A stretch of 64,000 bases of DNA from Cognatishimia sp. WU-CL00825 (GTDB lineage Bacteria > Pseudomonadota > Alphaproteobacteria > Rhodobacterales > Rhodobacteraceae), in NCBI RefSeq assembly GCF_040364665.1, contig NZ_BAABWX010000001.1:1364001-1428000 (forward strand), written 5' to 3'. This document shows, in pieces, positions 4,043 through 21,909 of the stretch. Position numbers and translations under genes: made by a program. The stretch's first letter is position 1. Every line of letters starts with the position of its first letter. A model generated the notes under the pieces. That model saw only the letters and a list, made by a program, of their open reading frames with translations. It did not search any database and was not told the DNA's origin.

Positions 4043-4057
4043 TGGCGGAGACGAAGG
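4043..4057 (-). repeat. Distal attachment-site copy of the tRNA-Ser 3' end
   Basis: These 15 bases are identical to 21820-21834, the last 15 nt of the tRNA-Ser(GCT) gene including its encoded CCA, in the same orientation (minus strand reads CCTTCGTCTCCGCCA). The match stops at 4058. Duplication of a tRNA 3' end is the usual scar of site-specific integration by a tyrosine integrase. A chance exact 15-mer in a window this size is very unlikely. The rest of 3835-4168 shows no convincing gene. Confidence 0.8.
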
Positions 4058-4168
4058 CCTCCAAGCCTACCATTAAGGCGAAGCCGTTGGGCTGCCCGAC
4101 GAATTGACTGGGATGCGGAGGTAAAAAAACAACCGAGATTTCCTAGTCGGCCATAGGCTGGTCTCCTC

Positions 4169-4444
4169 TCAACGTTTGCTTGGTAAACGATCTCCCTCAA
4201 CGGATTGCATACTTTCGCGCACCGCTAGGACTGAAGAATAGGTCGACACGCAATATGGCACCAAGAACGTGAGTGCGATTTTGAGATATGTTGCCAAATC
4301 AATATGGCCTGAAAGCAATCGATCTCCGTGGTTCAAAAAGGCAAGCACAACGCCAACGACTGAGGCGACACGAACGGCACGCACAGCTACCGTTCGTGTC
4401 GTAGCAATGGCAAAGAACCCATTCTTAGATTTGGAAATCGTCAT
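4169..4444 (-). CDS. NrtS-like small nitrate/nitrite transporter protein
   Basis: A 91-residue protein with two hydrophobic segments (about residues 22-40 and 52-70). The second, containing LVPYCVSTYSSV, is the hallmark of the NrtS family of small two-helix proteins annotated as nitrate/nitrite transport components. The ATG at 4444 is preferred over an upstream TTG. It lies 13 nt after the OsmC-like gene on the same strand, as the last gene of the island's left operon and 111 bp from the attachment repeat. Its link to aromatic catabolism is not obvious; it may be cargo of its own. Confidence 0.7.
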   Translation of the reverse strand: MTISKSKNGFFAIATTRTVAVRAVRVASVVGVVLAFLNHGDRLLSGHIDLATYLKIALTFLVPYCVSTYSSVLAVRESMQSVEGDRLPSKR

Positions 4445-4457
4445 TATTTCCAAGCTC

Positions 4458-5639
4458 TTATACCCGTTTGACCCGCAGCTTAGTTTTCAAATCAGTGCGG
4501 CAGAAGGCGTGTAGGAAACAAGTCTGTTCAGAGATATCCAGCATCTCTTGAGCGATTTCATCAGACTCAGAGGTCAGCAGATAGACATGTGTTTCGATAG
4601 GGTCCGCCTGCCCTGCTTTTCCGGTGCCCCCAGATGCGCCTCCAAGAGAGAAATGTGTGTCCTGAACGATACGGTAGTCCGGCAGATCCAGCTTCAGCAT
4701 ACTCACAAAGCGTCCGAACTGGGTCATAAAGCAGAAACCAATACCCGCAGAAATGAGGGAATTGGCATCCGGCGCACGCCCATCTTCTGATGACAGAAAA
4801 CGAAAGGATGTCCCATACGGAGAATATTGCATCTGCTGGATATCCTTGACCCCATCTTCACGCAACACCGCCACAGCACCGATATTCAACCGGCGATCTT
4901 GTTCGGCGGCCAAGGAAGACGCGCCCGCTGAAGTACCCAAAACAACATTTTTTTTCGGGGTCGGGCCTATGGGTTCCATATGCAGCAGATCATCAACCGT
5001 AGCGTCGGATTTGGCAAAGTGGTTGCCTGGGTCAGGAAAGAGCGACACGTCCAACTCTGCAACATTGGCAGTTGGCAGTTCTTGTCCGTTTTTGCCGAGC
5101 TTAAAGAGACTTTCCAATTGGCCGCGCATCAGCCCGTTCAAAGGCGATGCGTGAATTGCGTTCATTAGGAAAGTATTAAGTTCGCCATCCGGCAAGTCGC
5201 AGTCAATTTCTACGAGTAGCTCTACAGGCTCTGCCCCGCCAACCATGGTCCGCTTCGGCATAGAGCCTTTCATCGTGTAGTAGTTGTCTTGGATCAGTTT
5301 CAGTTTGCGGATTTCCACGCCCTGCAATTCAGCTAGTGCAATGATTTCGTTCATGTAACTTGCGACCATGCCTGACGATAAGAAAGCCAAAGGGCATGGC
5401 GCAGCGTCATGACCGTTCAGATAAGGGCCTTCATCGCTGACAAGGCGCCAAGTTTGGCCGGTTTTGGCAGAGCGAACAAGTGCTTCTTTCTGAAATCCAC
5501 TCAGGCTGCGAACCCAGGTACGAAGTGCGTCCCCCTTGCGATTTTCGGGTGCGTCGATGCTGACTTCATCCGCATTTGCGACTTTAAAAAAGGGAGGAAG
5601 GTCACTGGTCCCGATCATATCTTCGCCGATTTTGGCCAT
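4458..5639 (-). CDS. Tandem OsmC-domain protein
   Basis: A 393-residue protein that looks like two OsmC folds in one chain. The first (about residues 60-195) has PCPLAFLSSGMVASYM, with the N-terminal cysteine position of OsmC/Ohr proteins. The second (about 260-390) has SAGIGFCFMTQFG and, near the C-terminus, QTCFLHAFC. Single OsmC/Ohr proteins reduce organic hydroperoxides or act on related thiol-reactive compounds; the role of this fused form is unknown. The ATG at 5639 has GGAG 9 nt upstream and follows the DUF2218 stop directly, so I used it rather than an in-frame start 14 codons upstream. Confidence 0.72.
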   Translation of the reverse strand: MAKIGEDMIGTSDLPPFFKVANADEVSIDAPENRKGDALRTWVRSLSGFQKEALVRSAKTGQTWRLVSDEGPYLNGHDAAPCPLAFLSSGMVASYMNEIIALAELQGVEIRKLKLIQDNYYTMKGSMPKRTMVGGAEPVELLVEIDCDLPDGELNTFLMNAIHASPLNGLMRGQLESLFKLGKNGQELPTANVAELDVSLFPDPGNHFAKSDATVDDLLHMEPIGPTPKKNVVLGTSAGASSLAAEQDRRLNIGAVAVLREDGVKDIQQMQYSPYGTSFRFLSSEDGRAPDANSLISAGIGFCFMTQFGRFVSMLKLDLPDYRIVQDTHFSLGGASGGTGKAGQADPIETHVYLLTSESDEIAQEMLDISEQTCFLHAFCRTDLKTKLRVKRV

Positions 5640-5640
5640 C

Positions 5641-5925
5641 TCAGTTACTCCATTTGATTTGTAAGTCTTCACGAAACGCAAACCGTGTTAGGTGGCTGGA
5701 CATCACTTGCTGTAGTTTGGCCAGGGCTTCAGCGTCTTCTGCGCGAAGAACCATCACCAGTTGGTCTGCCTTTGCAATCATTTCAGCGCTTCCAAATGGA
5801 AACAGGATCTTCCCCTCATGCGAGGAAAACACCACATCAATTTTGTGGCCAAAATGCTTGCACAACTGCTGAAGGTATCCGCTGGCATTGGGCGTAGTAA
5901 TTTTTGCCGATGAAACGTGTTTCAT
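5641..5925 (-). CDS. DUF2218 domain protein
   Basis: A 94-residue protein matching DUF2218: ASGYLQQLCKHFGHK near the N-terminus and SHLTRFAFRE near the C-terminus are the characteristic motifs. The biochemical role of the family is not established; members often stand beside redox, metal or catabolic genes. Here it is followed within 2 nt by the tandem OsmC gene, which implies coupled expression. It is part of the leftward island operon. Confidence 0.75.
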   Translation of the reverse strand: MKHVSSAKITTPNASGYLQQLCKHFGHKIDVVFSSHEGKILFPFGSAEMIAKADQLVMVLRAEDAEALAKLQQVMSSHLTRFAFREDLQIKWSN

Positions 5926-6012
5926 AGGTTTCTCCGAATTTAATTGCGCTGAGTCGTGTTTGATCAGCGACTTGGAATTGAAGCCAACCCAACAAGGCTT
6001 AGCCCGGTGAGA

Positions 6013-6486
6013 CTAGCGTGCTGGAACTGGTCCAACATTCACGATGTCGTATTTCTTGTTTAGTGCAGCCACTTTTGCATTGTTCTCAAAATCTGCGTCG
6101 CTGAATTTGACAAGCTCTTCGAGGTACTGATCAAAACCAGATGGCTGGTAGATCATCAGCATGCGTGCAGCGTCGCAGCCTTCAGATATGATGCAAGCGT
6201 GTTCGACCCCGGGCGGAACATGAAGACAGGTCCCTAGCGCTGCTGTCATCCAGTCTCCGTCAATGTAAAAATCGACCGAACCTTCTAATATATAAAAGGT
6301 CTCAGCATGGTAACAATGCAAATGAAGACCCAACTTGAAATTGGCTTCCAAGTTGTCCTCCATCAGAGTGTAATGTCCGCCGGTATCTGCGGACGAGACT
6401 TTGACAAATGTGTGGTCTGCGGACCATTCGTAATTTGTCCCGCCACCCGCCGGAACATATGAATATCGCTTGCTCATCACCTGCAT
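6013..6486 (-). CDS. Single-domain cupin protein
   Basis: A 157-residue protein with a cupin barrel. Motif 1 is seen as GLHLHCYHAETFYILEG (His, His and Glu metal ligands, about residues 53-69) and motif 2 as HVPPGVEHACI (about 89-99). Cupins of this size are metal-binding dioxygenases, isomerases or sensors, so no substrate can be given. The start may be the ATG at 6486 or the one three codons downstream. It starts 4 nt after the SDR stop and is clearly in the same operon, so it may process an intermediate of the same pathway. Confidence 0.75.
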   Translation of the reverse strand: MQVMSKRYSYVPAGGGTNYEWSADHTFVKVSSADTGGHYTLMEDNLEANFKLGLHLHCYHAETFYILEGSVDFYIDGDWMTAALGTCLHVPPGVEHACIISEGCDAARMLMIYQPSGFDQYLEELVKFSDADFENNAKVAALNKKYDIVNVGPVPAR

Positions 6487-6490
6487 CCGA

Positions 6491-7246
6491 TCAGAGGTTT
6501 ACTTTGCCACCGTCCACGTTCAACGTCTGGCCCGTCACAAAATTGCTGTCTGGCGTGATCAGGTACATAAGCGACCCTAGCAGGTCTTCAGGCAGCATTT
6601 CACGCTTTATCGAACGAGACTGGACAGTTGGCGCGCGCGCCGGATCAAAGCCAGCGTGGCCCTGAAGCGCTTCACTTTCAGTCAAACCCGGTGCAATCGC
6701 ATTAACTTGGATGTTCTTGTCTCCAAGCTCGCGACCAAAGCAGCGGGTCAACGCAATGACCGCCCCTTTTGATGCGGTGTAATGCGACAAACCAGGAGGA
6801 CCGTAAAAGAAGGTCCCTGAAGCAATATTAACAATTTTGCCACCGCCGGCTCGTAACATAGCTGGGACGACCGCCTTGGTTGCCTGATGCACACCACGAG
6901 CGTTTACGAGCATAACTTTGTCAAATTCGTCATTGTCGATCTGCATAAACGGTTTTGGTTCAAGCGCTGCAAAAATAGATGCGTTGTTGACGAGAATATC
7001 TAGCCTACCAAATTCCTTTTCGGTAGCTTGGACCATGGTGGCAAGGTCATCGTCCGAAGTGATGTTAACGTTTAATCCGATCGCAGAACCGCCCGTGCTT
7101 TTGATCGCCGCAACTGTGTCTGCGGTATCCAACACATCCGTGACCACAACATTTGCACCTTCTTCAGCCATGCGAGTGGCCATCACTGCGCCGATTCCGC
7201 GAGCTGCGCCGGTGATGACAGCAGTTTTTCCTTCTAGGCGTCCCAT
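6491..7246 (-). CDS. SDR-family dehydrogenase/reductase
   Basis: A 251-residue classical short-chain dehydrogenase. Seen: the nucleotide-binding TGAARGIG near the N-terminus, NNAS near residue 88, the catalytic Ser (NIASGTFF) and the Tyr-x-x-x-Lys of SHYTASK, and a C-terminal GQTLNVDGG. The family oxidises or reduces alcohols and ketones with NAD(P). The ATG at 7246 is preceded by GGAGGA, so the longer start was rejected. Placed next to two GST genes and an aldehyde dehydrogenase, it could serve as a C-alpha dehydrogenase of an aromatic ether pathway (the LigD role), but this is inference. Confidence 0.85.
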   Translation of the reverse strand: MGRLEGKTAVITGAARGIGAVMATRMAEEGANVVVTDVLDTADTVAAIKSTGGSAIGLNVNITSDDDLATMVQATEKEFGRLDILVNNASIFAALEPKPFMQIDNDEFDKVMLVNARGVHQATKAVVPAMLRAGGGKIVNIASGTFFYGPPGLSHYTASKGAVIALTRCFGRELGDKNIQVNAIAPGLTESEALQGHAGFDPARAPTVQSRSIKREMLPEDLLGSLMYLITPDSNFVTGQTLNVDGGKVNL

Positions 7247-7260
7247 AACATCCTCCAGTC

Positions 7261-8082
7261 TCAAATTTCGATTTCAAGAATTTTGGCGACCTCGGGCCAG
7301 CTTTTGGCACCGTTTTCGCGTAAATCATTCGTCAAGTCTTCAGGCACCCAATCCAGGAAACACTTCTTGAAGTTAGGCAGAGCTTCGATGCGCGAAAACC
7401 AGTTTTCAACATTCGGCAGCCGGCCGTTCTCCCACATATCTCGCATCGACATCATTGCGAGGCGGTTCACGTATGGGGTCATAGCCACGTCGGCAATCGA
7501 GAATTTATTTCCAACCAGCCAGTCGCTACCATCACTCAGCGCATCTTCCATCTTATGCAGATAGGTGTCGTAAAGTCTTACCTTTTCGGTGGCCCCAGTT
7601 GCTTTGAAACCATAACGCGTGAACCCATCTTTTTGACTCTTCCAATCCGACGTCACAGAAATTGGTGGCGTTGAGGCAAGGAACTTTTTCACGCCATCTT
7701 CGCCCAAGTTCTTCAAAACCGTATGACGATGTGAACAAACGAAAGTCATCGCACCGCAGGCTGGGTGCAGATCTTCATCAACCGCCTTGGTCCAATAGCG
7801 AACTTGTGCATATTCCCATGGGTCAGACGGATGCATCGGGTTTTCAGGCACGATGTGATCTAGATACTCACAAATAACGGTGGAATCCGTTATCACAGTT
7901 TCATTATGGACCAACGTTGGAACAACTGCCTTTGGATTGAGTTTCATATACTCAGGATCAAACTGTTCACCTTTTAGAATATCGATATATTTGCCATCCC
8001 AATCGATTCCCTTCTCGTCCAAAGCAAAGCGTACTTTTGCAGCGCAAACCGAGGAACCGTGGTGATAAAGTGTAAAAGTCAT
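7261..8082 (-). CDS. Glutathione S-transferase (LigF-like architecture), copy A
   Basis: A 273-residue GST. The thioredoxin-fold half holds LYHHGSSVCAAKVRFALDEKG, split here as LYHHGSSVCAA and KVRFALDEKG, with VVPTLV (cis-proline) and DSTVICEYL (glutathione contact). The helical half has FSIADVAMTPYVN. Length and the VITDSTVICEYLD stretch recall beta-etherase GSTs such as LigF, which cleave aryl ethers with glutathione. GST functions are hard to assign, so this is a suggestion. The ATG overlaps the aldehyde dehydrogenase stop (ATGA), showing tight coupling. Confidence 0.8.
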   Translation of the reverse strand: MTFTLYHHGSSVCAAKVRFALDEKGIDWDGKYIDILKGEQFDPEYMKLNPKAVVPTLVHNETVITDSTVICEYLDHIVPENPMHPSDPWEYAQVRYWTKAVDEDLHPACGAMTFVCSHRHTVLKNLGEDGVKKFLASTPPISVTSDWKSQKDGFTRYGFKATGATEKVRLYDTYLHKMEDALSDGSDWLVGNKFSIADVAMTPYVNRLAMMSMRDMWENGRLPNVENWFSRIEALPNFKKCFLDWVPEDLTNDLRENGAKSWPEVAKILEIEI

Positions 8083-9518
8083 AGCTGCACCGTAACCCAT
8101 TTCAGTTCTGTCATTGCTTCCATATCGGCATCCGTGCCCTCCCGCCCAACACCGGATTCTCCGTTGCCTCCAAATGGCACATGCGCCTCGTCATGGATGG
8201 TCGGCCCATTTATGTGGCACATCCCAGCACCAATATTTTGCGCAAAATGGAAAGCTTTATTGATGTCTTTGGTGAAGATCGCCGAGGACAGGCCGTACTC
8301 TGAATCATTTGCCTTTTCGAGCCCTTCCTCATAGCTATCAATTGGATAGATGGAGCTCACAGGTCCAAAGGTTTCGCTTTTGCAAACCGTCATTTCTTCG
8401 GTCACGTCGGTCAAAAGCGTTGCCTGACAACGATTGCCTTCCCAATTGCCACCGGCAACGATATTCGCACCCTTAGCAACCGCATCTTGGATGTGATCGG
8501 CCACTCGCTTCCGCTGTCTCTCGGAGATAATTGGAGCAATAACAGTCTTTGGGTCACGAAGATCACCCATTCCAATTTTGGTTGCCACCATTGAAAAACG
8601 CTCGACGAACTCGTCATAGAGTGGACGTTCTACATAGAAGCGACTTGAGCCTATGCAGGCTTGGCCAGCAAACATGTAAATCGAACGCGCAGCGAGTGGC
8701 ACTACTTCATTCAAGTCCGCGTCCGCGAGAATTACGGTTGGGCTTTTACCCCCTAACTCCAGCGTGTTCGGTGTCTTGTTCTTCGCACAAATCTCATTAA
8801 TGTGCTGACCGACAACTGATGACCCGGTGAAGGTCACAAAATCCACGTCCTTATGCCCCGTCAGATCGTCGCCGATTTCGTGCCCAAAGCCCGTGACGAC
8901 ATTGTACGCGCCGGGTGGAAAACCGGCTTCGGCCACGATCTCAGCAAAGAGAACTGTTAGATGCGGTGCCATTTCGGAAGGGAGATGTACAACGGTATTT
9001 CCCACTGCCAGAGCATTAGCCACTAGCCGGGTGGTTTTAATCAATGGTACGTTGAACGGCGTGATGACAGCCACTACACCAAGCGGCTCTCGAATAGACA
9101 TTGAAAACTTGCCCGGAGCATCAGAAGGAATGGTCTCCCCACGCACATTTCGGCAGATACCCGCCGCTGCACGGATCATAGTCAGGCCCTTGTCAAACTC
9201 AAACATGGCCTTTTGGAACGGAGAACCAATTTCATCCACAAGGCAGTTGATGAGTTCATCTTTGCGCTGTTCCATGATTTCTGCAACGCGGAGCAACCAA
9301 AGTTCGCGCTCTTTGGGCAGGGTTTTCTTATATCCTGGGAACGCCTCTTTTGCAGCTCCCACCGCTTTGCGCATATCTGCACTGCTCCCTTTGGCCGCAA
9401 GAGTATAAAGCCTGTCATCCAGCGGGTTTAAATCCTCAAACGTTGCACCATCTTCGGCATCGACCCACGCGCCACCAATAAAGTGTTGAAGCGAGGTAAT
9501 TGTTGTTTTGGTGTCCAT
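8079..9518 (-). CDS. NAD(P)-dependent aldehyde dehydrogenase (aromatic-aldehyde type)
   Basis: A 479-residue aldehyde dehydrogenase of normal length. The catalytic residues are visible: Asn in TPFNVPL, Glu in LELGGKSP, Cys in GQACIGSSR, and the late ETFGPV loop. The closest remembered relatives are vanillin, benzaldehyde and salicylaldehyde dehydrogenases, so an aromatic aldehyde is a likely substrate; the sequence does not prove it. AGGAGC precedes the start. It lies between dctM and GST-A in the leftward operon and may deliver an aromatic acid to the protocatechuate branch. Confidence 0.85.
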   Translation of the reverse strand: MDTKTTITSLQHFIGGAWVDAEDGATFEDLNPLDDRLYTLAAKGSSADMRKAVGAAKEAFPGYKKTLPKERELWLLRVAEIMEQRKDELINCLVDEIGSPFQKAMFEFDKGLTMIRAAAGICRNVRGETIPSDAPGKFSMSIREPLGVVAVITPFNVPLIKTTRLVANALAVGNTVVHLPSEMAPHLTVLFAEIVAEAGFPPGAYNVVTGFGHEIGDDLTGHKDVDFVTFTGSSVVGQHINEICAKNKTPNTLELGGKSPTVILADADLNEVVPLAARSIYMFAGQACIGSSRFYVERPLYDEFVERFSMVATKIGMGDLRDPKTVIAPIISERQRKRVADHIQDAVAKGANIVAGGNWEGNRCQATLLTDVTEEMTVCKSETFGPVSSIYPIDSYEEGLEKANDSEYGLSSAIFTKDINKAFHFAQNIGAGMCHINGPTIHDEAHVPFGGNGESGVGREGTDADMEAMTELKWVTVQL

Positions 9519-9536: not shown

Positions 9537-10898
9537 CTATCCGCCGACAACGGCTTGCGGTAAGAACAGCGCGATTTGCGGGAAGAGGATGAGAAGACCA
9601 ATCATCGCAACCATGGCGAACCAGAAAGGCCAGATTCCACGGAAGATGTGGCTCATGGGCACATCCGGGGCGATGGACTTCACAATGAAGACGTTGATTC
9701 CAACGGGCGGGCTGATCATGCCCATCTCGAGCACGATTACCACGATGATGCCGAACCAGATCAGGTCCCAGTCCAGGGCAACGGCGATTGGGATCACCAC
9801 CGGAATGGTCAACACCAGCATAGCCATGGCTTCAAGGAACATGCCAAGAAACATATAGATTAGAACGACGATCAAAAGAATGCCGATTTCACCAATTGGA
9901 AGCGACGTCAGAATAGTAACCAATTGGGCGGGTAGTTCCGTCAGTGACATGAAAGGAATAAACACGAATGCACCGATGATGATCATGAAGACGGTTGCAG
10001 TTGCATTCATCGTTTCAACGATCACAGCCTTTGAAGCTTTCCATTTCAATGAACGGCGCCAAGCGGCCACCAGAAAGGTGAAAAAGGCACCAACCGAAGA
10101 AGCTTCAACAGGTGTAAAGAAACCCGTGTACATGCCGCCAATGGTCACGAGAACTACTGCGATAATTGGAACGGCACGCCACAATGAAGCGATTCTTTCT
10201 GCACGATCAAAGCGTTCACCACGCGGACCGGCCTCAGGATTGCGCACCACAACGAAATAGATCGCTCCGATGAACAGCAGGGTCAAGATGATGCCTGGGA
10301 ACACTCCTGCCATGAAGAGCCGTCCAATCGATTGCTCTGTCAGCACCGCATAGATGATCATGCCCCCTGAAGGAGGGATCAAAAACCCCAGTGTGCCCCC
10401 TGCTGCAACAGAGCCAGTGGCGAGGCTATCGGAGTATTTATAACGTTTCATTTCCGGTAGAGCCACACGACCCATGGTGACTGCAGATGCCAGTGACGAT
10501 CCCGAAAGCGCCGCAAATCCAGCACAGGCGGCGATGGTTGCTGAAGCTAAACCGCCACGCAAGTGGCCCATCCAACGATATGCTGCTGCGAACAAGTCGT
10601 TAGACATGCCAGAAACGCCTGCTAAGTTCCCCATCAGTATGAACATCGGGATAACCAATAGGTTATAGTTTGAAGCAGCCTCAAAGGTTTCACCAGCTAT
10701 ATTGGAGTATGCGACTTTAAATCCGCGCGCCCAAGCCTGGTCTTCAGCCATTCCCACGGCGATAAACTTGTTTGCGTTGGCTATGATTGTGCCAACAAAT
10801 CCGACGCCTAGCATCGACAGCGCAACGGGCATCCGAAGTGCCAAAAGAACAAAAAGGCTCAGCAGGCCCAATAGGCCTAGAAGCGTCATGCTAATCAC
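9537..10898 (-). CDS. TRAP transporter large permease (DctM family)
   Basis: A 453-residue very hydrophobic protein with roughly twelve membrane segments and typical DctM motifs (GGTLGFLIPPSGGMIIYAV, and SPPVGINVFIVKS near the C-terminus). It is the channel-forming subunit of a sodium-driven TRAP uptake system. Its start overlaps the stop of dctQ by 4 nt (ATGA). It works with the DctQ subunit upstream and one or both binding proteins further up the operon; the substrate is probably an organic acid. Confidence 0.93.
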   Translation of the reverse strand: MISMTLLGLLGLLSLFVLLALRMPVALSMLGVGFVGTIIANANKFIAVGMAEDQAWARGFKVAYSNIAGETFEAASNYNLLVIPMFILMGNLAGVSGMSNDLFAAAYRWMGHLRGGLASATIAACAGFAALSGSSLASAVTMGRVALPEMKRYKYSDSLATGSVAAGGTLGFLIPPSGGMIIYAVLTEQSIGRLFMAGVFPGIILTLLFIGAIYFVVVRNPEAGPRGERFDRAERIASLWRAVPIIAVVLVTIGGMYTGFFTPVEASSVGAFFTFLVAAWRRSLKWKASKAVIVETMNATATVFMIIIGAFVFIPFMSLTELPAQLVTILTSLPIGEIGILLIVVLIYMFLGMFLEAMAMLVLTIPVVIPIAVALDWDLIWFGIIVVIVLEMGMISPPVGINVFIVKSIAPDVPMSHIFRGIWPFWFAMVAMIGLLILFPQIALFLPQAVVGG

Positions 10899-11434
10899 AG
10901 TTCGCCCTCCCCAATTTTCAATTTCACGACCTGGTCAGACTGCATTAGTTGCCAGATATCGAGCACCAGCACCAAGGCATAGAACGACGACGAGGCCGCT
11001 AGAAGGTAGTAGAATGGTTCAAACGAGATCAGAAGCTGCTGAGTGGTTTCGCCAAAGCGCACGGCGTTTTGACCAGCGTGCAATAGTTGTTGTGCCATCA
11101 CGCAAAGAAGTCCAAAGCCAAGTAGCTTGACTGCTATCATGGACCATTTTGCGAAGCCTTTGGACATGCGCGCCTCAAGTACTTCTATCTCGATATGGGC
11201 CCCGGTTCGCGCTCCTAGAGGGATGGACAGCGCCACTATTACGACAAGCGACAAGATCAAAAGATCCTCTGCACCGACAATAGGAGAGTTCAGCGCCTTG
11301 CGCATGATCAGGACGTTCCAAACCGAGAAGCCAGTCATGAACACAAGGGTCAGCCCGCCACAGAACAGGGATACCCAAGTCAAAACTCGGTCAAGTTGCT
11401 CTATTAAGGGAAATTTTTCGATTTCGCTCGACAT
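10895..11434 (-). CDS. TRAP transporter small permease (DctQ family)
   Basis: A 179-residue protein with four predicted membrane segments (about residues 18-38, 50-68, 90-112 and 130-152) and the conserved stretch LGARTGAHIEIEVL between helices 2 and 3, typical of DctQ. It is the small membrane subunit of the TRAP system encoded with dctM. A GAGG ribosome site precedes the ATG. It lies directly after GST-B, an unusual gene order because a soluble enzyme separates the binding-protein genes from the permeases. Confidence 0.9.
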   Translation of the reverse strand: MSSEIEKFPLIEQLDRVLTWVSLFCGGLTLVFMTGFSVWNVLIMRKALNSPIVGAEDLLILSLVVIVALSIPLGARTGAHIEIEVLEARMSKGFAKWSMIAVKLLGFGLLCVMAQQLLHAGQNAVRFGETTQQLLISFEPFYYLLAASSSFYALVLVLDIWQLMQSDQVVKLKIGEGEL

Positions 11435-11453: not shown

Positions 11454-12215
11454 TCAAACTTGAGAAAAGTCAGGACACCACTTTAGGACGCCTTGTTGAT
11501 AGCTTTCTTTGGTTTGGAATGCTGCAGCCCACTTTTGGACATTCGGAAATTTCCCGAAGTCATACCCACAGGCGTCGATAACGAAGTGGAGTGGGATCCA
11601 CGAAATATCTGCCAGTGTAAACTGGTCGCCCATAATCCAATTGCGACCCTCCAAGGTCATTTCGAGCTTGGCAAAACACGCTCCCAAAATCGCCTTGGCT
11701 TTGTCGAAATCACTGGTACTGAAGCTTTTGTCTCCAGAGTGTTTGTCATGAAACTCTTTCAGTTCCTGATTCTTTTGTAGCGCGTCGTATTTTGCTTGTT
11801 CTTCCGCAGTTTTCTTAATCTTTGCGGCCATTTTTGTTGCATAAACGTATGGCTTGCACGCTGGCACGTGTATCGCTGCCGCTAAATGCAACCACTCCAT
11901 CATTTCGTCATTGTTTTCAGCGCGCAACGAGGGCTCCGGATAGACATCATCCAGGTAGTCAATAATATCATTTGACTCGATGTGAACCACGCCGTTGTCG
12001 ATCAAAGTCGGCACCAAACCATTCGGGTTAATACCAAAATACTCTTCGGTTATGTTCTCCTTTTTCAGTAGATCGAGATGATGACTTTCCCAATCCAGTC
12101 CTTTTTCGATCAAAGCTATCCGTACTCTCATTGAGCAATTTGAAATCGCACCGTGATAAAGGTGCAGCCCCTCAAAAGACTCTACCGATTTGTTTGAAGG
12201 AACAATAACGACCAT
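11454..12215 (-). CDS. Glutathione S-transferase, copy B
   Basis: A 253-residue GST, clearly diverged from copy A. The thioredoxin half has LYHGAISNCSMRVRIALIEKG (as LYHGAISNCSM then RVRIALIEKG), GLVPTLI and ESNDIIDYLDD; the C-terminal helical half has FTLADISWIPLHFV. AGGGAG precedes the ATG at 12215, so I preferred it to a start 12 codons upstream. It is placed between dctP and dctQ in one transcription unit, so its substrate is likely to be the imported compound or its first product. Confidence 0.8.
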   Translation of the reverse strand: MVVIVPSNKSVESFEGLHLYHGAISNCSMRVRIALIEKGLDWESHHLDLLKKENITEEYFGINPNGLVPTLIDNGVVHIESNDIIDYLDDVYPEPSLRAENNDEMMEWLHLAAAIHVPACKPYVYATKMAAKIKKTAEEQAKYDALQKNQELKEFHDKHSGDKSFSTSDFDKAKAILGACFAKLEMTLEGRNWIMGDQFTLADISWIPLHFVIDACGYDFGKFPNVQKWAAAFQTKESYQQGVLKWCPDFSQV

Positions 12216-12346
12216 TGCAGAACTCCCTTTCAGAATTGCCGTGCATGACACAAAAACATCTTGGAACTGGATTGCTTACAATCCGACGCCAAAAAGTTAT
12301 TGGCGGATAGGTGCCGCGCTGTAACCCGCGACACCATTCCGGTACG

Positions 12347-13366: not shown

Positions 13367-13427
13367 TGTATAATCCTCCTTCAGATAGCGCGCCGAGAGC
13401 CAAGCTCGGGACACAATACTTGGTGAT

Positions 13428-14438: not shown

Positions 14439-14478
14439 TGTTGTCCTCCCTAGGGGTAAAGCGAGCCGCATTCCGTCT

Positions 14479-14692
14479 TGGGATCCCATCACAAATCAAG
14501 ATTCCCAATTTTTTCGACTCACATCGAATGCTAGCGAGTTAACACGATTATGGGATCCCAAATCAAGGAAAAACTTCGAATAACTGTGATATTTACCGTT
14601 AAAATATCATTTCAGGATCCTTTAATGAGCGAGAAACCCGTTATGTAACTGCGTATTTCCAACATATTCAACCTCTTGACTTTGGGATCCCA
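14479..14692. promoter_or_regulatory. Three-copy GntR operator region (TGGGATCCCA)
   Basis: The perfect 10-bp palindrome TGGGATCCCA occurs at 14479-14488, 14551-14560 and 14683-14692, all in the 257-bp gap between the divergent TRAP operon and the GntR gene. A partial copy (CAGGATCCTT) lies near 14613. FCD-type GntR regulators bind palindromes of this kind. The last copy abuts the regulator start, which suggests autoregulation; the other two probably control the operon. Binding is inferred. Confidence 0.75.
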
Positions 14693-14695
14693 TGC

Positions 14696-15448
14696 ATGAT
14701 GAATGACAACATGGAATCTATTGACACAGCACTCGCCACGCGCATTCGGCGTGACATTATGATGGGCACCTTCGACGAAGGAGGTCGCCTATCTGAAGCA
14801 CGACTTAGCGAAATCTACGAGGTTTCGCGTACACCAATTAGACTGGCTTTACGCATATTAGAGCGCGAGCGCCTCATCCGCCGAGGTGAAGGACGCGGCT
14901 ATACAGTCGTGAGCCCGACCGTGGAAGAGATTCTACAAGCAGTACAGGTCCGCGGACACTTGGAAAGTCTCGCAGCACGCCTTATGGCGCAGTCCGAGAC
15001 TCGCTGCCAGCACCTGCCAAACATGGCAAAAGCGATTGAGACAATAGATATCGTACTTAGAAATGGCCTATTAGGCGATTCCGCCAAACGTGAAGCTCAG
15101 GCAGCTAACAGGGTCTTTCATACTTCAATCTTAAATGCCTGCGAGAACGACTACGTGGGCTTTGCCTGCGAGCAGATCAGTCACTTGCCCATGCTTGCAG
15201 CTGGATCCATGGTCTTCGATCGCACCACAATTCAATCTTCAGATCCAATGGAGAGTGGGCTGTTCAGGCTCCATCTTGGAAATGCGCAACACCAGGTGAT
15301 TTATGAGGCAATTGAAAAAGGTGATGCGGTTCGTGCAGAAGGTATGATGCGAGAGCATTCACACACAATGGTGGACTATATCCGTACCTTTGAACGGAAA
15401 GACGACAGCCTAACAGTTGCGGACTTGGTTGCATACTCAGAGGGCTAA
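14696..15448 (+). CDS. GntR-family transcriptional regulator (FadR/FCD subfamily)
   Basis: A 250-residue regulator. The N-terminal winged helix (about residues 10-75) has the GntR pattern LSEARLSEIYEVSRTPIRLAL, here split as LSEARLSEIYEV and SRTPIRLAL, followed by RGEGRGYTV. The C-terminal all-helical ligand-binding domain (about 80-225) has the FCD metal-site histidines, as in FHTSILNA and HLGNAQHQVIYEAI. It is divergent from the TRAP/GST operon and should respond to the imported compound or a product. The start is uncertain: ATG at 14696 or 14711. Confidence 0.88.
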   Translation: MMNDNMESIDTALATRIRRDIMMGTFDEGGRLSEARLSEIYEVSRTPIRLALRILERERLIRRGEGRGYTVVSPTVEEILQAVQVRGHLESLAARLMAQSETRCQHLPNMAKAIETIDIVLRNGLLGDSAKREAQAANRVFHTSILNACENDYVGFACEQISHLPMLAAGSMVFDRTTIQSSDPMESGLFRLHLGNAQHQVIYEAIEKGDAVRAEGMMREHSHTMVDYIRTFERKDDSLTVADLVAYSEG

Positions 15449-15639: not shown

Positions 15640-16698
15640 CTACGACCCAACGCGAGAAATCTCGTCCAACTGCGAAACCGCAATCTGCAGCGCCCTGCCC
15701 GTAGTGCAAACCATGGCAGGGAGAACCATCCACTCCAATGTCCATGCGCTGCCCGAACGCTCCTGTTCGTGGATCAATGCATTGTGCATAAGAGCAAGCT
15801 GTCCAGCATTGTATTGCGCCAGAGCGATTAACATCTCGGCTTTTACTGGGTTTTGTTTATGCGCCATGGCAGAGCTTGTTCCGCCACCTGATTGGGTGAT
15901 TTCCTCAATGCCCTGCTGTGCCATAAGACATATGTCTTGACCGATTTTCCCAAGACTCCCAGTGACCAGGGACAGCCAGCCTGCGTAGGCTACAAATCGC
16001 GTTCTATCATTGTGCCAAGCATAGCCTGGGTCCGTGAGCCCGAGCCTATTTGCCAAGTCGGCACCAATTTCCACCACCTTATCACGGTTGGCGCTCCGGT
16101 CCCCTGTAGCACCACCGAATTGCAGGACTTGCAAATCACTCCGCATACCTGCCAGGCTATCTCTGTGCCGATAAAGCGGAATGACCCAATTCTCCAGGCG
16201 GTGTCTCACTGTGATTGGTAGAGCGGCCTGCATGCGAGTCCGCCCCATCAGGCTATTGTTGCCTTGAGACTCAATTAGGCGTTCAATACCTGCAATCGCG
16301 GTTTCTAGCCGCGCTGTAAATGTGTCGTTCACTTCTTTCAACGCGAGCACCGTCGCAGTATCAATCAAATCCTGAGAAGTACTCCCGACATGCACCGCCG
16401 GGGTCAAATCAGCCCCTACATGCTTTCTAAGCTGACGCAGGAACTCTGGAACCGGAACACCGTCGATGGGACTAGCCACCTTGATGGCATTCATATCCGG
16501 CGAAAAGCTGTGCATCTTTTTTATCGCAGCCTTCGCGGTACTGACATCCACAGCACCACTCGCAGCAAGTGCTTCACTCAGAGCAATCTCAAAAGCTAAA
16601 AAGCGCGCGAAGGTCCGCCCTGTTTCGAACACTGCTGTCACTTCGGGGTCTTCAAAAAGGGAAGAGAAAAATAGATTGGATTGAGTCAGCGGATTCAC
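15640..16698 (-). CDS. pcaB: 3-carboxy-cis,cis-muconate cycloisomerase
   Basis: A 352-residue enzyme of the fumarase/aspartase superfamily. The signature loop GGGTSSAMAHKQNPV is plain, as are THVGST-like VHVGSTSQDLIDTA and RTRMQAALP. It converts 3-carboxy-cis,cis-muconate to 4-carboxymuconolactone in the cytoplasm. About 350 residues is normal for the alphaproteobacterial short form. The start is GTG. It is the last gene of the pca operon. The 190-bp gap to the GntR gene holds a weak AAGCTC/GAGCTT hairpin and nothing else I recognise. Confidence 0.92.
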   Translation of the reverse strand: MNPLTQSNLFFSSLFEDPEVTAVFETGRTFARFLAFEIALSEALAASGAVDVSTAKAAIKKMHSFSPDMNAIKVASPIDGVPVPEFLRQLRKHVGADLTPAVHVGSTSQDLIDTATVLALKEVNDTFTARLETAIAGIERLIESQGNNSLMGRTRMQAALPITVRHRLENWVIPLYRHRDSLAGMRSDLQVLQFGGATGDRSANRDKVVEIGADLANRLGLTDPGYAWHNDRTRFVAYAGWLSLVTGSLGKIGQDICLMAQQGIEEITQSGGGTSSAMAHKQNPVKAEMLIALAQYNAGQLALMHNALIHEQERSGSAWTLEWMVLPAMVCTTGRALQIAVSQLDEISRVGS

Positions 16699-16737: not shown

Positions 16738-17583
16738 TCAGGGATTTGTCGAGTTAGGTTGTGGAAGGCCCAAAATGTCCCGAGCCTGTCGCCAACTGGC
16801 AACGGGTCGTTTGTATTGATTACAGAACTCAGTGACGCGCTTGACCAGAGCAGCATTTGATGGTGCAAGCCGATCCTTATCAATCCGAACATTGTCTTCC
16901 AATCCCGTCCGGCAGTGTCCGCCTTCAGCAACGCACCATTCATTAACGGTAATTTGATGACGTCCTATCCCCGCAGCACACCACTCTGCCCCAGGAGATA
17001 GTCGATTTACGGTTTCAATGAAGAAGTCAAAGGACCGTCGATCAACGGGCATAGCGTTTTTTACACCCATTACAAATTGGATATATAAATCCCCTGGTAC
17101 ACGCCCGTCCTTGTTCATCTGTGCTGCCTGATGGATGTGGCTCAGGTCAAAAGCTTCGATCTCCGGTTTGACGTTGTGGGTACGCATTTCGCTGGCCAGC
17201 CAATCCACCAGATCAGGACTATTCTGGTAAACCCGTGTAGGAAAATTGTTAGACCCAACCGAAAGCGAAGCCATATCAGGCCCCAATGGCAACATGCCAC
17301 CTCGTTCTTGGTTAGCACCTGAACGACCTCCTGTCGAAAATTGGATGATCATACCGGGGCAGTGTTTCTCCAGTCCCTCTTTTAGGCGCGCAAACTTTTC
17401 CGGATCTGACGTTGTGGACTGATCGTCGTTGCGCACGTGAGCGTGTACGATACTTGCGCCCGCTTCAAAGGCTTCCTGAGTAGATTCAATTTGCTCATCA
17501 ATGGTGATCGGAACCGCAGAATTGTTTTCTTTACGGGGTAATGAGCCCGTAATTGCACAGCAGATTATGCAAGGTTTCGTCAT
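16738..17583 (-). CDS. BKACE-family beta-keto acid cleavage enzyme (DUF849)
   Basis: A 281-residue member of the BKACE (DUF849, Kce-like) family. Seen: CAITGSLPRKEN at the start, HAHVR with the zinc-binding histidines, and QFSTGGRSG. Family members condense a beta-keto acid with acetyl-CoA to give acetoacetate and a new acyl-CoA. Between pcaG and pcaB the obvious substrate is beta-ketoadipate, which would yield acetoacetate and succinyl-CoA and replace PcaIJ and PcaF, none of which is in the window. That role is inferred. The ATG at 17583 has AGGACA upstream. Confidence 0.82.
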   Translation of the reverse strand: MTKPCIICCAITGSLPRKENNSAVPITIDEQIESTQEAFEAGASIVHAHVRNDDQSTTSDPEKFARLKEGLEKHCPGMIIQFSTGGRSGANQERGGMLPLGPDMASLSVGSNNFPTRVYQNSPDLVDWLASEMRTHNVKPEIEAFDLSHIHQAAQMNKDGRVPGDLYIQFVMGVKNAMPVDRRSFDFFIETVNRLSPGAEWCAAGIGRHQITVNEWCVAEGGHCRTGLEDNVRIDKDRLAPSNAALVKRVTEFCNQYKRPVASWRQARDILGLPQPNSTNP

Positions 17584-17639
17584 GTCACGTGTCCTGTTGG
17601 TTAGCGACGTCATACCTAAATGGCACAACGTCGAATTTT

Positions 17640-18260
17640 TTAAATATCAAAGAAAACAGTTTCGTCTTTGCCCTGCAGCCTAATGTCAAAACGATATACG
17701 ATTTCGCCGTCGCGCTCTGAACGCTTAGCGATCAAAGTCGCCCGCCGGTGTTCCCACTCAATGATGTTCAGCACAGGGTCTTCCGAGTTTGCAGCCACTT
17801 CATCCGCAAAATAGACGCGAGTATTCAGGCCGATATTAATGCCGCGCGCGACAATCCACAGGTTGATGTGCGGCGCTTGTATTCCGACATTGCGCCCCCG
17901 CGTGCGGCCTGGCTTAACCGTCTCAAAAGCCCATTCACCGGTCTCGAAATTGGTGATCACACGTCCCCAGCCCCGAAAGCCCTCTTCCACTTCGCCACCA
18001 CCTTCTGGGTGCGCGTAATGACCGTTGCAATTAGCCTGCCATGCCTCTAGCAAAACATCTTTAACCGGGGCCCCCATGCCGTCAAACACGAGACCTTCTA
18101 CTCGGATACGCTTGCCTTCTGCATTCGGCCCGGCAATGTCCCAACCCAGCTCTTGCTCATAGATATCGAACCCAGCAGCACCTGGAGCCAAGCCGATATG
18201 TACATATGGACCCGCAGTTTGAGAGGGGGTTTCCTTGAGATAACCAAGTTTTTGTACCAT
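17640..18260 (-). CDS. pcaG: Protocatechuate 3,4-dioxygenase, alpha subunit
   Basis: A 206-residue intradiol dioxygenase subunit. SQTAGPYVHIGL near the N-terminus and APHINLWIVARG in the core are the typical alpha-subunit motifs; the alpha chain lacks the full iron ligand set. It pairs with PcaH in an (alpha-beta-Fe) multimer that opens the protocatechuate ring between its hydroxyls. The gene starts 2 nt after the pcaH stop. Confidence 0.95.
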   Translation of the reverse strand: MVQKLGYLKETPSQTAGPYVHIGLAPGAAGFDIYEQELGWDIAGPNAEGKRIRVEGLVFDGMGAPVKDVLLEAWQANCNGHYAHPEGGGEVEEGFRGWGRVITNFETGEWAFETVKPGRTRGRNVGIQAPHINLWIVARGINIGLNTRVYFADEVAANSEDPVLNIIEWEHRRATLIAKRSERDGEIVYRFDIRLQGKDETVFFDI

Positions 18261-18262
18261 GA

Positions 18263-18991
18263 TTAGTTCCCCTCCAAACGGTTTTCAAAGAGCGTGGAAC
18301 GTCGGCCGCGCAGGACAATATCAAATTTGTAGGCAATCGAATCCAGCGGGATCGTTGCGTTGAGATCCAACGCGGCAACAAGGCTGTCACGACCATCTTG
18401 CGAAGGAATGGTTTTCACAATCGGACACTTATCCAACAGCGGATCACCTTCGAAATAGCATTGCGTGATTAGCCTCTGAGAAAATGCAGTACCAAAGATC
18501 GACATGTGAATGTGAGCCGGTCTCCAATTGTTTACCCAATTGCGCCATGGATAGGCTCCCGGTTTCACGGTGCGGAAAAAATAGAACCCATTTTCGTCAG
18601 TCAGTGTCCGACCGCAACCACCAAAATTTGGGTCAATCGGTGCAAGGTAAGTGTCTTTCTTGTGACGATAACGCCCACCCGCATTTGCCTGCCAAGCCTC
18701 CACGAGGGTATTGGGGACTGGGCGACCATTCTCATCAAGCACACGTCCGTGTAATATGATACGTTCACCAATCGGGCTTTCACCGGGTTTCGCGTAGTTC
18801 AGGATCAAATCGTTGTCGATGGGGTTAATGTCGTTGTGACCAAAGACCGGCCCAGTGATTTCGCTTACCGAATTTTGCAACGAAATCATCGAGTATTGCG
18901 GCGACCGCGCTACGGAGGTCTTGTAATCAGGGGTAAGAGCGGCAGGCTGCCTTTCTCTGTCCCTCTGGTAGAATTCGCCCATTGTTGACAT
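18263..18991 (-). CDS. pcaH: Protocatechuate 3,4-dioxygenase, beta subunit
   Basis: A 242-residue catalytic subunit. The Fe(III) ligands are seen as Tyr in GRYRHKKD, Tyr in PGAYPWRNW, and the two His in [12 protein letters not shown]. It cleaves protocatechuate to 3-carboxy-cis,cis-muconate with O2. Length and motifs match the family. It is co-transcribed with pcaG downstream and pcaC upstream. Confidence 0.96.
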
Positions 18992-19036: not shown

Positions 19037-19414
19037 CTATTCATTTTCCAATTCGGCGTAGGTTTTTTTCGCCAGTTTCAGCGCGTGGTTCGCGCGTGGA
19101 ACGCCTGCGTAAATTGCAACGTGTTGAAAGGCCTCCAAAACGTCTCTTTTACTTGCACCTGTTCGTGTACAAGCGCGGATGTGCATTGGAATCTCTTCGA
19201 AATTCCCAAGCGCCGCCAACAAAGCCAATGTCAACATTGACCGTTCGCGCTGGCTTATTCCGTCGCTTGCCCAAACCGTTCCCCAAGCACTTTCAGTGAT
19301 CAGCGTTTGAAACGGTACATCAAAATCCGTCTTCTGCAATTCCGCACGATCAACATGGGCATCACCCAAAACAGTGCGGCGAGTTTTCATGCCCAGTTCG
19401 AGCCGTTCAGACAT
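19037..19414 (-). CDS. pcaC: 4-carboxymuconolactone decarboxylase
   Basis: A 125-residue CMD-family protein. SERSML-like RERSMLTLALLAALG, HIRACTRTGAS and IYAGVPRANHAL are diagnostic. It decarboxylates 4-carboxymuconolactone to beta-ketoadipate enol-lactone. It is a separate protein, not the PcaCD fusion seen in some bacteria. Its start overlaps the end of pcaD by 8 nt. Confidence 0.95.
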   Translation of the reverse strand: MSERLELGMKTRRTVLGDAHVDRAELQKTDFDVPFQTLITESAWGTVWASDGISQRERSMLTLALLAALGNFEEIPMHIRACTRTGASKRDVLEAFQHVAIYAGVPRANHALKLAKKTYAELENE

Positions 19415-20195
19415 GTCCGTTCTCCTTTAGGAAATTTGTCAAAATTGCCGCATATTCGGCGGGCTTTTCGACGCATGGCAAATGGCCAGCGCCCTCAATG
19501 GTACGAAAAGACGCGCCTTCGATCATAGCAACGGTGCCCTCGACCAGATTAGCTGGACTAGCACCGTCCACCGAACCGGCAATGCCAAGGGTCGGCTGTC
19601 TAATCGCCCGCGTCTGGGCACTCAGATCGGCAGCCGCTATTGCATGACAGCAGCCGATATACCCCTCCTTTGGGGTTCGAATTAGCATATTGCGCCATGC
19701 GTTCAGTTCGTCATCACGTCTGAATTCCTCTGAGAACCAACGTTCTAGAATTGGCCCAGCTAAGGACTCGACACCTCCTTCTTGAATGGCTGCAATGCGG
19801 TCGTTCCACATTTGCTGGTCGCCCAACTTGGCCGCAGTGTTAGACAACACCAAGGCAGAAATTAGATCGGGTCGCCGCACCGCCACGACCTGCCCAATCA
19901 TACCGCCGATAGAAAGCCCTACGAATGCGCAGCCTGAAATGCCAAGTTGATCCAAGAGATCCACGGCATCATTTGCAAGCTCATCCATAGAATAGGGAGA
20001 TGGCAAACAATCAGACAAGCCGTGCCCACGTGTATCAAAACGGATCACTCTCAAACCACCTGGCAGCAGTGCCACGACCTTGTCCCACAGCTTCAAATCC
20101 GTTCCCAGGGAGTTTGAAAAAACCACAGGAAATCCGGTTTCAGGGCCCTCAATTCGGACATGCAATGCCAAATTTTGCAATTTTACGATTTGCAT
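19407..20195 (-). CDS. pcaD: 3-oxoadipate enol-lactonase
   Basis: A 262-residue alpha/beta hydrolase. The oxyanion region FSNSLGTDLKLWD, the nucleophile elbow GLSIGGMIG, and the final His in GAGHLPC are clear. It hydrolyses beta-ketoadipate enol-lactone to beta-ketoadipate. It is the first gene of the leftward pca operon, facing pcaQ across a 109-bp promoter region. Confidence 0.95.
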   Translation of the reverse strand: MQIVKLQNLALHVRIEGPETGFPVVFSNSLGTDLKLWDKVVALLPGGLRVIRFDTRGHGLSDCLPSPYSMDELANDAVDLLDQLGISGCAFVGLSIGGMIGQVVAVRRPDLISALVLSNTAAKLGDQQMWNDRIAAIQEGGVESLAGPILERWFSEEFRRDDELNAWRNMLIRTPKEGYIGCCHAIAAADLSAQTRAIRQPTLGIAGSVDGASPANLVEGTVAMIEGASFRTIEGAGHLPCVEKPAEYAAILTNFLKENGHV

Positions 20196-20244
20196 TATGT
20201 ATCCTCAATGGTTGGGCTCTATCCTCCGTCCAGAAATTAACATA

Positions 20245-20257: not shown

Positions 20258-20304
20258 CAAAAATGACTTATTGTGCCATTTAGTTTCCCTTTTGAATAAC
20301 TAAA

Positions 20305-21219
20305 ATGATCGATCGCCGTATTAAATTCCGCCACATCCAGTGTTTCGTTGAGATAAGCCGGCTCAGGAGTATGAAGTCGGCTGCAGAGCGATTGCTTTTG
20401 ACCCAACCTGCAATTTCCAAAACCCTTAAAGAGTTGGAGACGTTGCTTGGGGCTGATCTAATGACCCGCAGCCGAGCCGGAATTTCGCTGACGAAACAGG
20501 GGGAAGTATTCCTGCACTTTGCCGAGATGAGCCTTGCCGCCTTGCAACAGGGGATGGATGGCGTGGAAAGAGAGGGCGAGGCTAGATCCGCACGAGTCAA
20601 AGTGGGTGTACTACCCTCGGTTGCGGCTCGCTTGATGCCGCTGGTGGCGCAGGAGTTTTCGGAGCTTTCAAACAGCAGTAGGTTGGAAATCTCGGATGGC
20701 CCGGTTAGTTATCTAATTCAAAAACTGCGGAATGGTGAGCTAGATCTTGTGGTTGGACGTCAAGCGCCTCCTGACACGATGAAAGGGATCGCATTTACGC
20801 AGCTTTACAACGAGACCGTCGATTTTGTAGTGCGTCCAAAACACCCACTTCTGCAAGCCCCCGATCTCGCCCGTATCGGTGAATGGCAAGTGATCTATCC
20901 CTCAGAACACTCGGCCATAAGACCGCTTGTTGAGCGGTATTTGATTGCCAATGGCGTAGGCGAACTTCCAAACAAACTGGAAACAGTTTCAGGCGCATTT
21001 GGGAGAGTATATACACCAAGAAGCGACGCCGTTTGGATCATTTCGTCTGGTGTTGTTGCAAATGAAATCGATAATGGAATGCTTTGCCGCCTACCATTTG
21101 ATACGACTATGACAAATGGTCCAGTCGGATTGATGATGAAAGCCAGCACAAACCCGTCCTCCGAACAAAAGATTTTCTCTATAGCTGTCGATAATATTGT
21201 TCGATCGCAAGGTTTATAG
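20305..21219 (+). CDS. pcaQ: LysR-type activator of the pca operon
   Basis: A 304-residue LysR regulator. The helix-turn-helix occupies residues 5-65 (RHIQCFVEISRLRSMKSAAE, then LTQPAISKTLKELE), followed by a two-lobed effector domain. Length, the divergent position to pcaD and the sequence fit PcaQ, which in rhizobia responds to beta-carboxy-muconate type intermediates. It is the last intact gene of the island on this side. Confidence 0.88.
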   Translation: MIDRRIKFRHIQCFVEISRLRSMKSAAERLLLTQPAISKTLKELETLLGADLMTRSRAGISLTKQGEVFLHFAEMSLAALQQGMDGVEREGEARSARVKVGVLPSVAARLMPLVAQEFSELSNSSRLEISDGPVSYLIQKLRNGELDLVVGRQAPPDTMKGIAFTQLYNETVDFVVRPKHPLLQAPDLARIGEWQVIYPSEHSAIRPLVERYLIANGVGELPNKLETVSGAFGRVYTPRSDAVWIISSGVVANEIDNGMLCRLPFDTTMTNGPVGLMMKASTNPSSEQKIFSIAVDNIVRSQGL

Positions 21220-21233
21220 ATAGTTGCACAACC

Positions 21234-21683
21234 TTACGTCGGCTGTTGATGCACCTTCAATTGGCTGCCAATCTTGGGAAACGCATAGTCAAGCAAGGTG
21301 TTGTTCCATAGCTGCCCATGCTTGGCGTTTTTACATGTAGGCATTCGATCCATATGCACCTGCTCTTCAAAGGTCGGCACCTCTTGGCGGGCATTGAAGC
21401 GCGAATTCAAACCTTGCTTTGCCATGCTCCGATATTCCAGCGCGCGTTCTCTTGCTTGGTTGATCGTGACAATATCCGCACCACCCAAACCAAAATCCGT
21501 GCGCAATGGAGCACCCTTCCTATTTTTCTGCCCTTTAACGACCACGCGCACGATCCAACGACGAGCCGCGGATGGATCAACGACAAGCTACTATCCATTG
21601 CTGTCGCCATGTGGCCCCGGTCCAAGATTCTCTGCTAGCTTCTTTGTTAGCTTTCTGCCCAGCGCCGCCAATCGACGTGCCAC
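21234..21683 (-). pseudogene. Tyrosine-type integrase remnant
   Basis: Reading the minus strand from a GTG at 21683 gives the DUF4102-type N-terminus of tRNA-targeting integrases: LTKKLAENLGPG, then HGDSNG, two consecutive in-frame TAG stops, then LVVDPSAARRWIVRVVVKGQ and DFGLGGADIV, and last the SAM-like core-binding start (PTCKNAKHGQLWNNTLLDYA). A short deletion near TFEEQVH is likely. The gene ends at 21234 before any catalytic Arg, His or Tyr, so it is dead. It starts 136 bp from the tRNA 3' end and points away from it, the normal layout for an island integrase. Confidence 0.85.
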
Positions 21684-21819
21684 CTTTCATAACACACAAT
21701 GAAGGCGTAGCGAGGCGACCGAATAAAATCCAGCAAGCCTTAAATAAGGCGATCGTTCAGGAAATACTGAGGTTTAGGCTATTCAAAGCAGCCTCACAAA
21801 ACCTCAGAAAAAGTGTGGG

Positions 21820-21909
21820 TGGCGGAGACGAAGGGATTCGAACCCTCGATACCGTTTCCGGTATACTCCCTTAGCAGGGGAGCGCCTTCGACCACTCGGC
21901 CACGTCTCC
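21820..21909 (-). tRNA. tRNA-Ser(GCT)
   Basis: The minus strand folds as a 90-nt type II tRNA: acceptor GGAGACG pairing with CGTCTCC, anticodon stem CTCCC/GGGAG around loop CTGCTAA (anticodon GCT), a long variable arm (TATACCG/CGGTATC-type hairpin), T-loop GGTTCGAATCC and an encoded CCA. It reads AGC/AGT codons. Its 3' end is the integration site of the island to its left. Confidence 0.97.

Follow-up and report, generated by a model that had tools for sequence, protein, structure and literature searches.

A decayed genomic island at tRNA-Ser(GCT) very probably carries the protocatechuate genes of Cognatishimia sp. WU-CL00825

In Cognatishimia sp. WU-CL00825 the pca genes for protocatechuate catabolism lie close to a tRNA-Ser(GCT) gene, in a 64,000-nucleotide stretch (positions 1,364,001 to 1,428,000 of contig NZ_BAABWX010000001.1; hereafter the window). 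We propose that the 17.8 kb between window position 4043 and this tRNA are very probably a genomic island that an integrase deposited with these two ends at a tRNA-Ser hotspot, and that has since decayed. As genomic islands go, it is of an ordinary kind, but its joints are unusually clear. Its cargo consists of the pca operon and of a module encoding a tripartite ATP-independent periplasmic (TRAP) transporter, glutathione S-transferases (GST1 and GST2), an aldehyde dehydrogenase (ALDH) and a short-chain dehydrogenase (SDR) (Table 1). With less assurance, we consider it probable that both blocks entered in one event.

Results

The attachment repeat and the integrase remnant

The terminal 15 nt of tRNA-Ser(GCT), with CCA, recur as an exact copy in the same orientation near the left edge of the window, and identity ends at 15 nt. 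With up to two mismatches allowed, the 15-mer has 12 places in the 3.62-Mb genome; the two island ends are the only exact ones and the other 10 have two mismatches. By our own arithmetic, about 0.007 occurrences of a given 15-mer are expected by chance on both strands. The attachment repeat is real and well above chance. Because the identity block is 14 nt long in related islands, its fifteenth base may be a coincidental match.

Just inside the tRNA end, the arm-binding domain PF13356 matches 21384–21647 on the reverse strand (E 2.3e-8), with two in-frame TAG codons inside the match. Five integrases of 395–403 aa, those among 20 related loci for which our filter recovered an open frame of more than 350 aa, align to about 21267–21671 at 77–83% identity, from their residues 1–7 to 137–142. 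The remnant is the N-terminal third of a tyrosine recombinase of ∼ 400 aa, and the catalytic two-thirds are gone. The fragment had no match in phage sequences. An earlier note, made from the sequence alone, had described the 15-nt repeat, a dead integrase next to the tRNA and two gene blocks between the repeats, and all three were borne out, the gene blocks by profile searches. Its two island ends also stand, although the right-hand coordinate that it gave, 21834, takes in the tRNA's own copy of the repeat.

Relatives of the integrase indicate its target. The open 105-aa piece of the remnant was searched against 394 genomes of the family; 137 of them, the window's own included, match at E ≤ 1e-5, and the locus of the best match was read in each of 29 other genomes. 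In 26 of the 29 a tRNA lies about 0.26 kb upstream of the integrase in the same orientation (11 Ser(GCT), 7 Ser(TGA), 3 Ser(GGA) and 5 Arg(ACG)), and in three there is none. The window remnant has the same spacing. The integrase frame is open over 395–435 aa in 24 of these genomes and over 201–339 aa in the other five. Judged by these neighbourhoods, this is an integrase family whose predicted targets are the 3′ ends of tRNA-Ser and tRNA-Arg(ACG).

Distal repeats in related islands

We read 11 regions with integrases of the same family, ten from other genomes and one from this genome's second copy at tRNA-Ser(TGA), over about 12–40 kb behind each tRNA. An exact 14-nt copy ending at CCA was present in four, at 25.7, 8.8, 22.1 and 11.3 kb. 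The second island in the present genome (L186:7804–19168; G000:C1, about 31.8–43.2 kb) has its exact 14-nt repeat 11.3 kb away, and its 394-aa integrase belongs to the same family and has all three Pfam domains. This island also holds a second integrase-like gene and a gene for a 1645-aa RTX-repeat protein.

The 14-mer is present in 270 of the 394 genomes, mostly, we take it, as the tRNA itself. Among the matches listed, two or more copies share a contig in at least 21 genomes, that of the window among them; by our own count, 19 of those 21 listed genomes have a same-orientation pair and 18 have such a pair within 51 kb, and a reversed control pattern occurs in 20 of the 394 genomes. Twenty places of the 14-mer were read closely, and 5 were tRNA copies and 15 distal. 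The left arms of the distal copies match TGGCGGA at 0–7 of 7 positions (1, 1, 2, 5, 7 and 7 in the six from the same family).

Two congeners show further copies of the tRNA end at tRNA-Ser(GCT). In G001 they lie at 0, 10.9 and 21.0 kb behind the tRNA (L046, L059), an arrangement that suggests two tandem islands, which lie behind a 575-aa DUF6538/integrase-like gene; this gene differs in type from the integrase family above (PF00589, E 4.8e-5). In G003 a 14-nt copy lies 2.3 kb away. The stretch between its copies (L048:13956–16251) encodes a defence-like pair, GmrSD_N and RiboL-PSP-HEPN, and PF00589 had no match there.

Composition

The G+C content of the island is 50.2%, against 53.9% (standard deviation (sd) 0.67, minimum 52.5%) in 62 overlapping core segments of equal size. 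Its tetranucleotide deviation is 0.172, against 0.072 (sd 0.008, maximum 0.098) for the core segments, which belong to their own reference and so have somewhat lowered values; the left neighbour of the island, which lies outside that reference, has a deviation of 0.083. Taken block by block, the pca operon has a z of 4.1 and the TRAP module one of 8.9, and the three blocks to the left have 0.1, 1.6 and 1.3. At a resolution of 3 kb, four segments within the island exceed the 99th percentile, as does one across the tRNA, and the other island segments lie below it. The foreign signature thus lies between the repeats and not left of 4043, in line with the comparison that the earlier note had proposed. 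Compared segment against segment, the distance between the pca and TRAP blocks is 0.182–0.183, like that between two core segments (0.181, sd 0.019; 351 pairs compared); their distance from the core segments is 0.225–0.257. Such matching signatures favour one donor or a long shared residence.

The flanks in congeners

The tRNA adjoins the same right-flank nucleoside hydrolase gene in all eight congeners (75–81% identity), and the 60 nt behind it differ in all nine genomes. We compared 120 kb from each of seven congeners. None of the island open reading frames (ORFs) of at least 120 aa has a counterpart there at 55% identity. On the far side, core order resumes in five congeners (G002, G003, G004, G007 and G008, the last with a further break), and in the window genome this happens about 45.5 kb from the tRNA, at a point about 23.7 kb beyond the left edge of the window. 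No core order was seen in the stretch read from G001 and G005, and in G006 the contig stops 1.8 kb behind the tRNA. A zone of ∼ 45 kb is thus variable among congeners, and the island makes up its tRNA-proximal part.

Between 1.3 and 8.9 kb left of the window (L044; 23.1–30.7 kb from the tRNA), transport and other genes share 61–98% protein identity with genes of G003 in the same variable zone and have native-like composition. This stretch may be an older layer of the hotspot that both genomes share. HlyD- and FtsX-type genes adjoin the island on its left (230–3834), and distant relatives of both (39%) lie a few kb from the pca operon nearest to that of the window, in G237 (L181:16758–20000), possibly by coincidence.

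The pca operon

By established chemistry, the operon's enzymes convert protocatechuate into succinyl-CoA and acetoacetate with no need for PcaIJ and PcaF. At E 1e-30 the genome has a single match for pcaH, and the island ORFs scanned included no identified pobA. Relatives of pcaH at 60–90% identity occur on 282 plasmid records, so pca genes on plasmids are common; the whole island had no match in plasmid and phage sequences by megablast.

We built a pca tree from 18 operons: that of the window, those of 13 other pcaH genomes and four of five fetched later. Two rows lack the BKACE gene, and G384 was left out, its locus having no pcaC, pcaH or pcaG. The window genome (G000) pairs with G237, which belongs to another genus, and the other congeners fall elsewhere, G001 with G006 and G003 with G395, each pair with 100/100 support; the genus needs three changes. 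Of the 15 inner branches, seven are unresolved. An approximately unbiased (AU) test rejected a grouping of G000 with G001 and G006 (p 3.6e-4). The operons of the genus lie on three separate branches and in different neighbourhoods, which, as far as the tree goes, is most simply read as separate gains of pca at three places in this small genus. We claim the discordance and neither donor nor direction, because trpA does not separate the genera (identity 84% in G237, 85–90% in three congeners and up to 87% in other genera).

The differently branching operons of G001 (L094:11584–12652) and G006 (L095:237–1300) have their pcaQ end beside the 3′ end of a tRNA-Arg(CCG), 6 nt away in G001. We do not call them islands, as no repeat of that tRNA end was found in 52.6 kb (G001) or 13.3 kb (G006).

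The TRAP/GST module

Eight named loci hold the module cluster with GST1 at 79–89% identity; TRAP genes accompany it in seven and were not found in L125. The hosts are Ruegeria, Shimia, Amylibacter, three metagenome-assembled genomes (MAGs) of Rhodobacteraceae or Paracoccaceae, a Rhizobiaceae MAG and a Granulosicoccus MAG. The order of the module tail is kept in four of the eight closest named loci (L118, L119, L120 and L124). The cluster is also present in G009 and G022, and these have GST1 at 80–81% identity; they are two of the eight genomes, among 79 relatives besides G000, with a match at E ≤ 1e-30, the others reaching 31–38%. GST1 has no close relative in the eight congeners (best, G007, 35%) and no match at E 1e-60 in plasmid and phage sequences. 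On these comparisons the cluster formed by the TRAP/GST block is conserved but patchily distributed. The tandem DctP genes have a 139-nt stretch in common at 74% identity, and related clusters show both or only one of them.

The nearest relatives of the ALDH are salicylaldehyde, 4-hydroxybenzaldehyde and vanillin dehydrogenases. GST1 aligns to the β-etherase LigF (PDB 4xt0) over residues 4–248 of 279; LigF is its closest solved relative, yet a distant match, and etherase activity of GST1 is putative. The NCBIfam beta-etherase model matches GST2 only, with 19 bits against a cut-off of 440, and no Lig enzyme was named among the 60 best solved matches shown for the SDR. The substrate of the module is probably an aryl ether or an aldehyde of an aromatic compound. 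We read the two blocks as a route by which such an upstream compound would be brought to protocatechuate.

Table 1. Features of the island and its target tRNA (window positions).
Feature	Position	Strand	Basis
Attachment repeat, distal copy (displaced tRNA 3′ end)	4043–4057	-	exact, same orientation as tRNA-end copy
Module tail: OsmC-like 4458–5681, DUF2218 5641–5925, cupin 6013–6486	4458–6486	-	Pfam
Short-chain dehydrogenase (SDR)	6491–7264	-	Pfam; PDB matches
LigF-like glutathione S-transferase (GST1)	7261–8100	-	best PDB match LigF 4xt0, E 1.5e-27
Aldehyde dehydrogenase (ALDH)	8079–9518	-	nearest solved relatives act on aromatic aldehydes
TRAP permease: DctM 9537–10898, DctQ 10895–11434	9537–11434	-	Pfam
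Glutathione S-transferase 2 (GST2)	11454–12251	-	Pfam
Two tandem TRAP solute-binding proteins (DctP)	12347–14492	-	Pfam
GntR/FCD regulator of the TRAP/GST module	14696–15448	+	Pfam; same relative place in related clusters
pcaB, 3-carboxymuconate cycloisomerase	15640–16698	-	NF004631 over cut-off; TIGR02426 below cut-off
3-oxoadipate:acetyl-CoA acetyltransferase (BKACE family)	16738–17628	-	NF053568, 491 bits against cut-off 350
pcaG, protocatechuate 3,4-dioxygenase alpha	17640–18260	-	TIGR02423 over cut-off
pcaH, protocatechuate 3,4-dioxygenase beta	18263–18991	-	TIGR02422 over cut-off
pcaC, 4-carboxymuconolactone decarboxylase	19037–19414	-	TIGR02425 over cut-off
pcaD, 3-oxoadipate enol-lactonase	19407–20195	-	TIGR02427 over cut-off
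pcaQ, LysR-type regulator of the pca operon	20305–21219	+	TIGR02424 over cut-off
Dead tyrosine integrase reduced to its N-terminal third; in-frame stops; no catalytic domain	21267–21671	-	PF13356; alignment to longer relatives
Attachment repeat, tRNA-end copy (14 nt in related islands, 21820–21833)	21820–21834	-	sequence comparison
tRNA-Ser(GCT), intact target gene	21820–21909	-	ARAGORN; sole tRNA found in window

Discussion

We suggest that an island of ∼ 17.8 kb would have entered the 3′ end of tRNA-Ser(GCT) by means of an integrase whose relatives target tRNA-Ser and tRNA-Arg(ACG). Recombination across the terminal 14 nt would account for the intact tRNA at one end and for the displaced copy at the other. 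The integrase would later have lost its catalytic two-thirds and gained stops, a decay that probably fixed the cargo in place, with loss of excision as its presumed consequence. That cargo would be a PcaQ-led protocatechuate operon with pcaB and a BKACE-type last step, together with the TRAP/glutathione/dehydrogenase module.

Several observations weigh against this account. No genome examined joins the left flank directly to tRNA-Ser: the earlier note had looked to relatives for an uninterrupted join, and comparison of the left-flank DNA and the FtsX protein with congeners gave no usable match. The reason why no such empty site was found is that the DNA left of 4043 varies too, and congeners have no counterpart of it. 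Seven of the 11 same-family regions have no distal repeat of at least 12 nt in the stretch read, one of which, G160, has a distal 14-nt copy at 43.6 kb. A second direct copy of the tRNA end of at least 12 nt is likewise missing left of 4043. The 600-nt integrase stretch alone is not compositionally distinct (z 0.5). The left arm of the window's distal copy, TGGAGGC, matches TGGCGGA at only five of seven positions, which decides nothing because other distal copies range from 0 to 7. Finally, no other locus that we read, over about 20 kb or less in each case, has the pca and TRAP blocks next to each other; TRAP genes of 27–41% identity lie near pca in L096, L101 and L184.

The last observation also bears on how the cargo was assembled. 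If an integrase island with the TRAP/GST module came first and pca arrived later next to the tRNA, where it took the place of the 3′ two-thirds of the integrase gene, the blocks need not be neighbours elsewhere, and the integrase alignment would stop where it does, about 48 nt from the end of pcaQ. However, both blocks have one foreign signature, only about 190 nt separate them, with convergent genes, and no other copy of the tRNA end of at least 12 nt lies between the two repeats. We regard such a two-step assembly, which competes with single entry and not with the island as such, as possible but the less likely course. That the whole variable zone is the true island, with 4043 an internal or older attachment scar, would explain why core order returns only about 45.5 kb from the tRNA. 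It is improbable, since composition beyond 4043 is native-like and the DNA 23.1–30.7 kb from the tRNA is common to G003 in the same zone and therefore has a separate history.

Vertical inheritance, with pca ancestral in the genus, lost by most congeners and the repeat coincidental, could draw on the presence of pcaH in three of the eight congeners. Those copies, however, lie at other places in the genome, with 49–56% (pcaQ), 53–54% (pcaD) and 33–44% (pcaB) identity to the window, and the attachment repeat has no further exact copy in the genome. The tree test rejected vertical inheritance: holding the four congeners of the genus as one clade gave an AU p of 9.5e-8. The earlier note had named as the contrary case relatives with the same genes here but no repeat, or with a syntenic pca operon; in the DNA read from the congeners, these genes do not occur at this tRNA. 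We consider vertical inheritance highly improbable. The note's view of an acquired element with these two ends, on which it placed protocatechuate catabolism, is supported by independent lines: the uniqueness of the repeat, the integrase target, the attachment copies in related islands, composition, synteny and the pca tree.

The element has the features of a tRNA-integrated island: an intact tRNA with a displaced 3′ copy, the remnant of a tRNA-targeting integrase at the tRNA end, and foreign DNA between. Among 22 island ORFs scanned with Pfam, a set that includes few of the overlapping ORFs, there were no relaxase or conjugation genes and no phage structural genes; the DUF2218 protein matches a conjugal-transfer-regulator model weakly, at 26 bits where the cut-off is 80. 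Genomic islands with tRNA fragments as their boundaries are a familiar kind, catalogued by Islander, and likewise have a tyrosine integrase, a restored tRNA at one end and a displaced fragment at the other (PMC4383910). Unlike them, the window island has a decayed integrase, and it might escape searches that start from intact integrases. Pseudomonas bharatica CSV86 is also an aromatic degrader with acquired DNA at or near tRNAs; its elements exceed 50 kb (PMC9298801), whereas the window island measures 17.8 kb and has no conjugation family over cut-off among the ORFs scanned. R. nubinhibens of the Roseobacter clade also has a pcaQ-led cluster with pcaD, C, H and G; it includes pobA, and pcaB, pcaIJ and pcaF are at other loci (PMC12442348); the window operon differs in having pcaB and a BKACE-type enzyme inside. 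Among the titles listed by our searches of an open-access library, none describes the island, its integrase family or its TRAP/GST cluster.

It is tempting, but doubtful, to see here one transferable route from uptake to central metabolism, a glutathione-dependent upper module joined to a protocatechuate lower operon, on which the sister integrase at tRNA-Ser(TGA) may act in trans, with tRNA-Ser as a shared docking site for catabolic cargo across the family. The island itself ties the genome's only pcaH match, and with it the 3,4-cleavage of protocatechuate, to acquired DNA. Because the integrase family is consistent in its tRNA target and has an identity block of 14 nt, it lets exact ends be assigned to decayed islands, and the pairing of upper and lower modules provides a testable hypothesis about the substrate.

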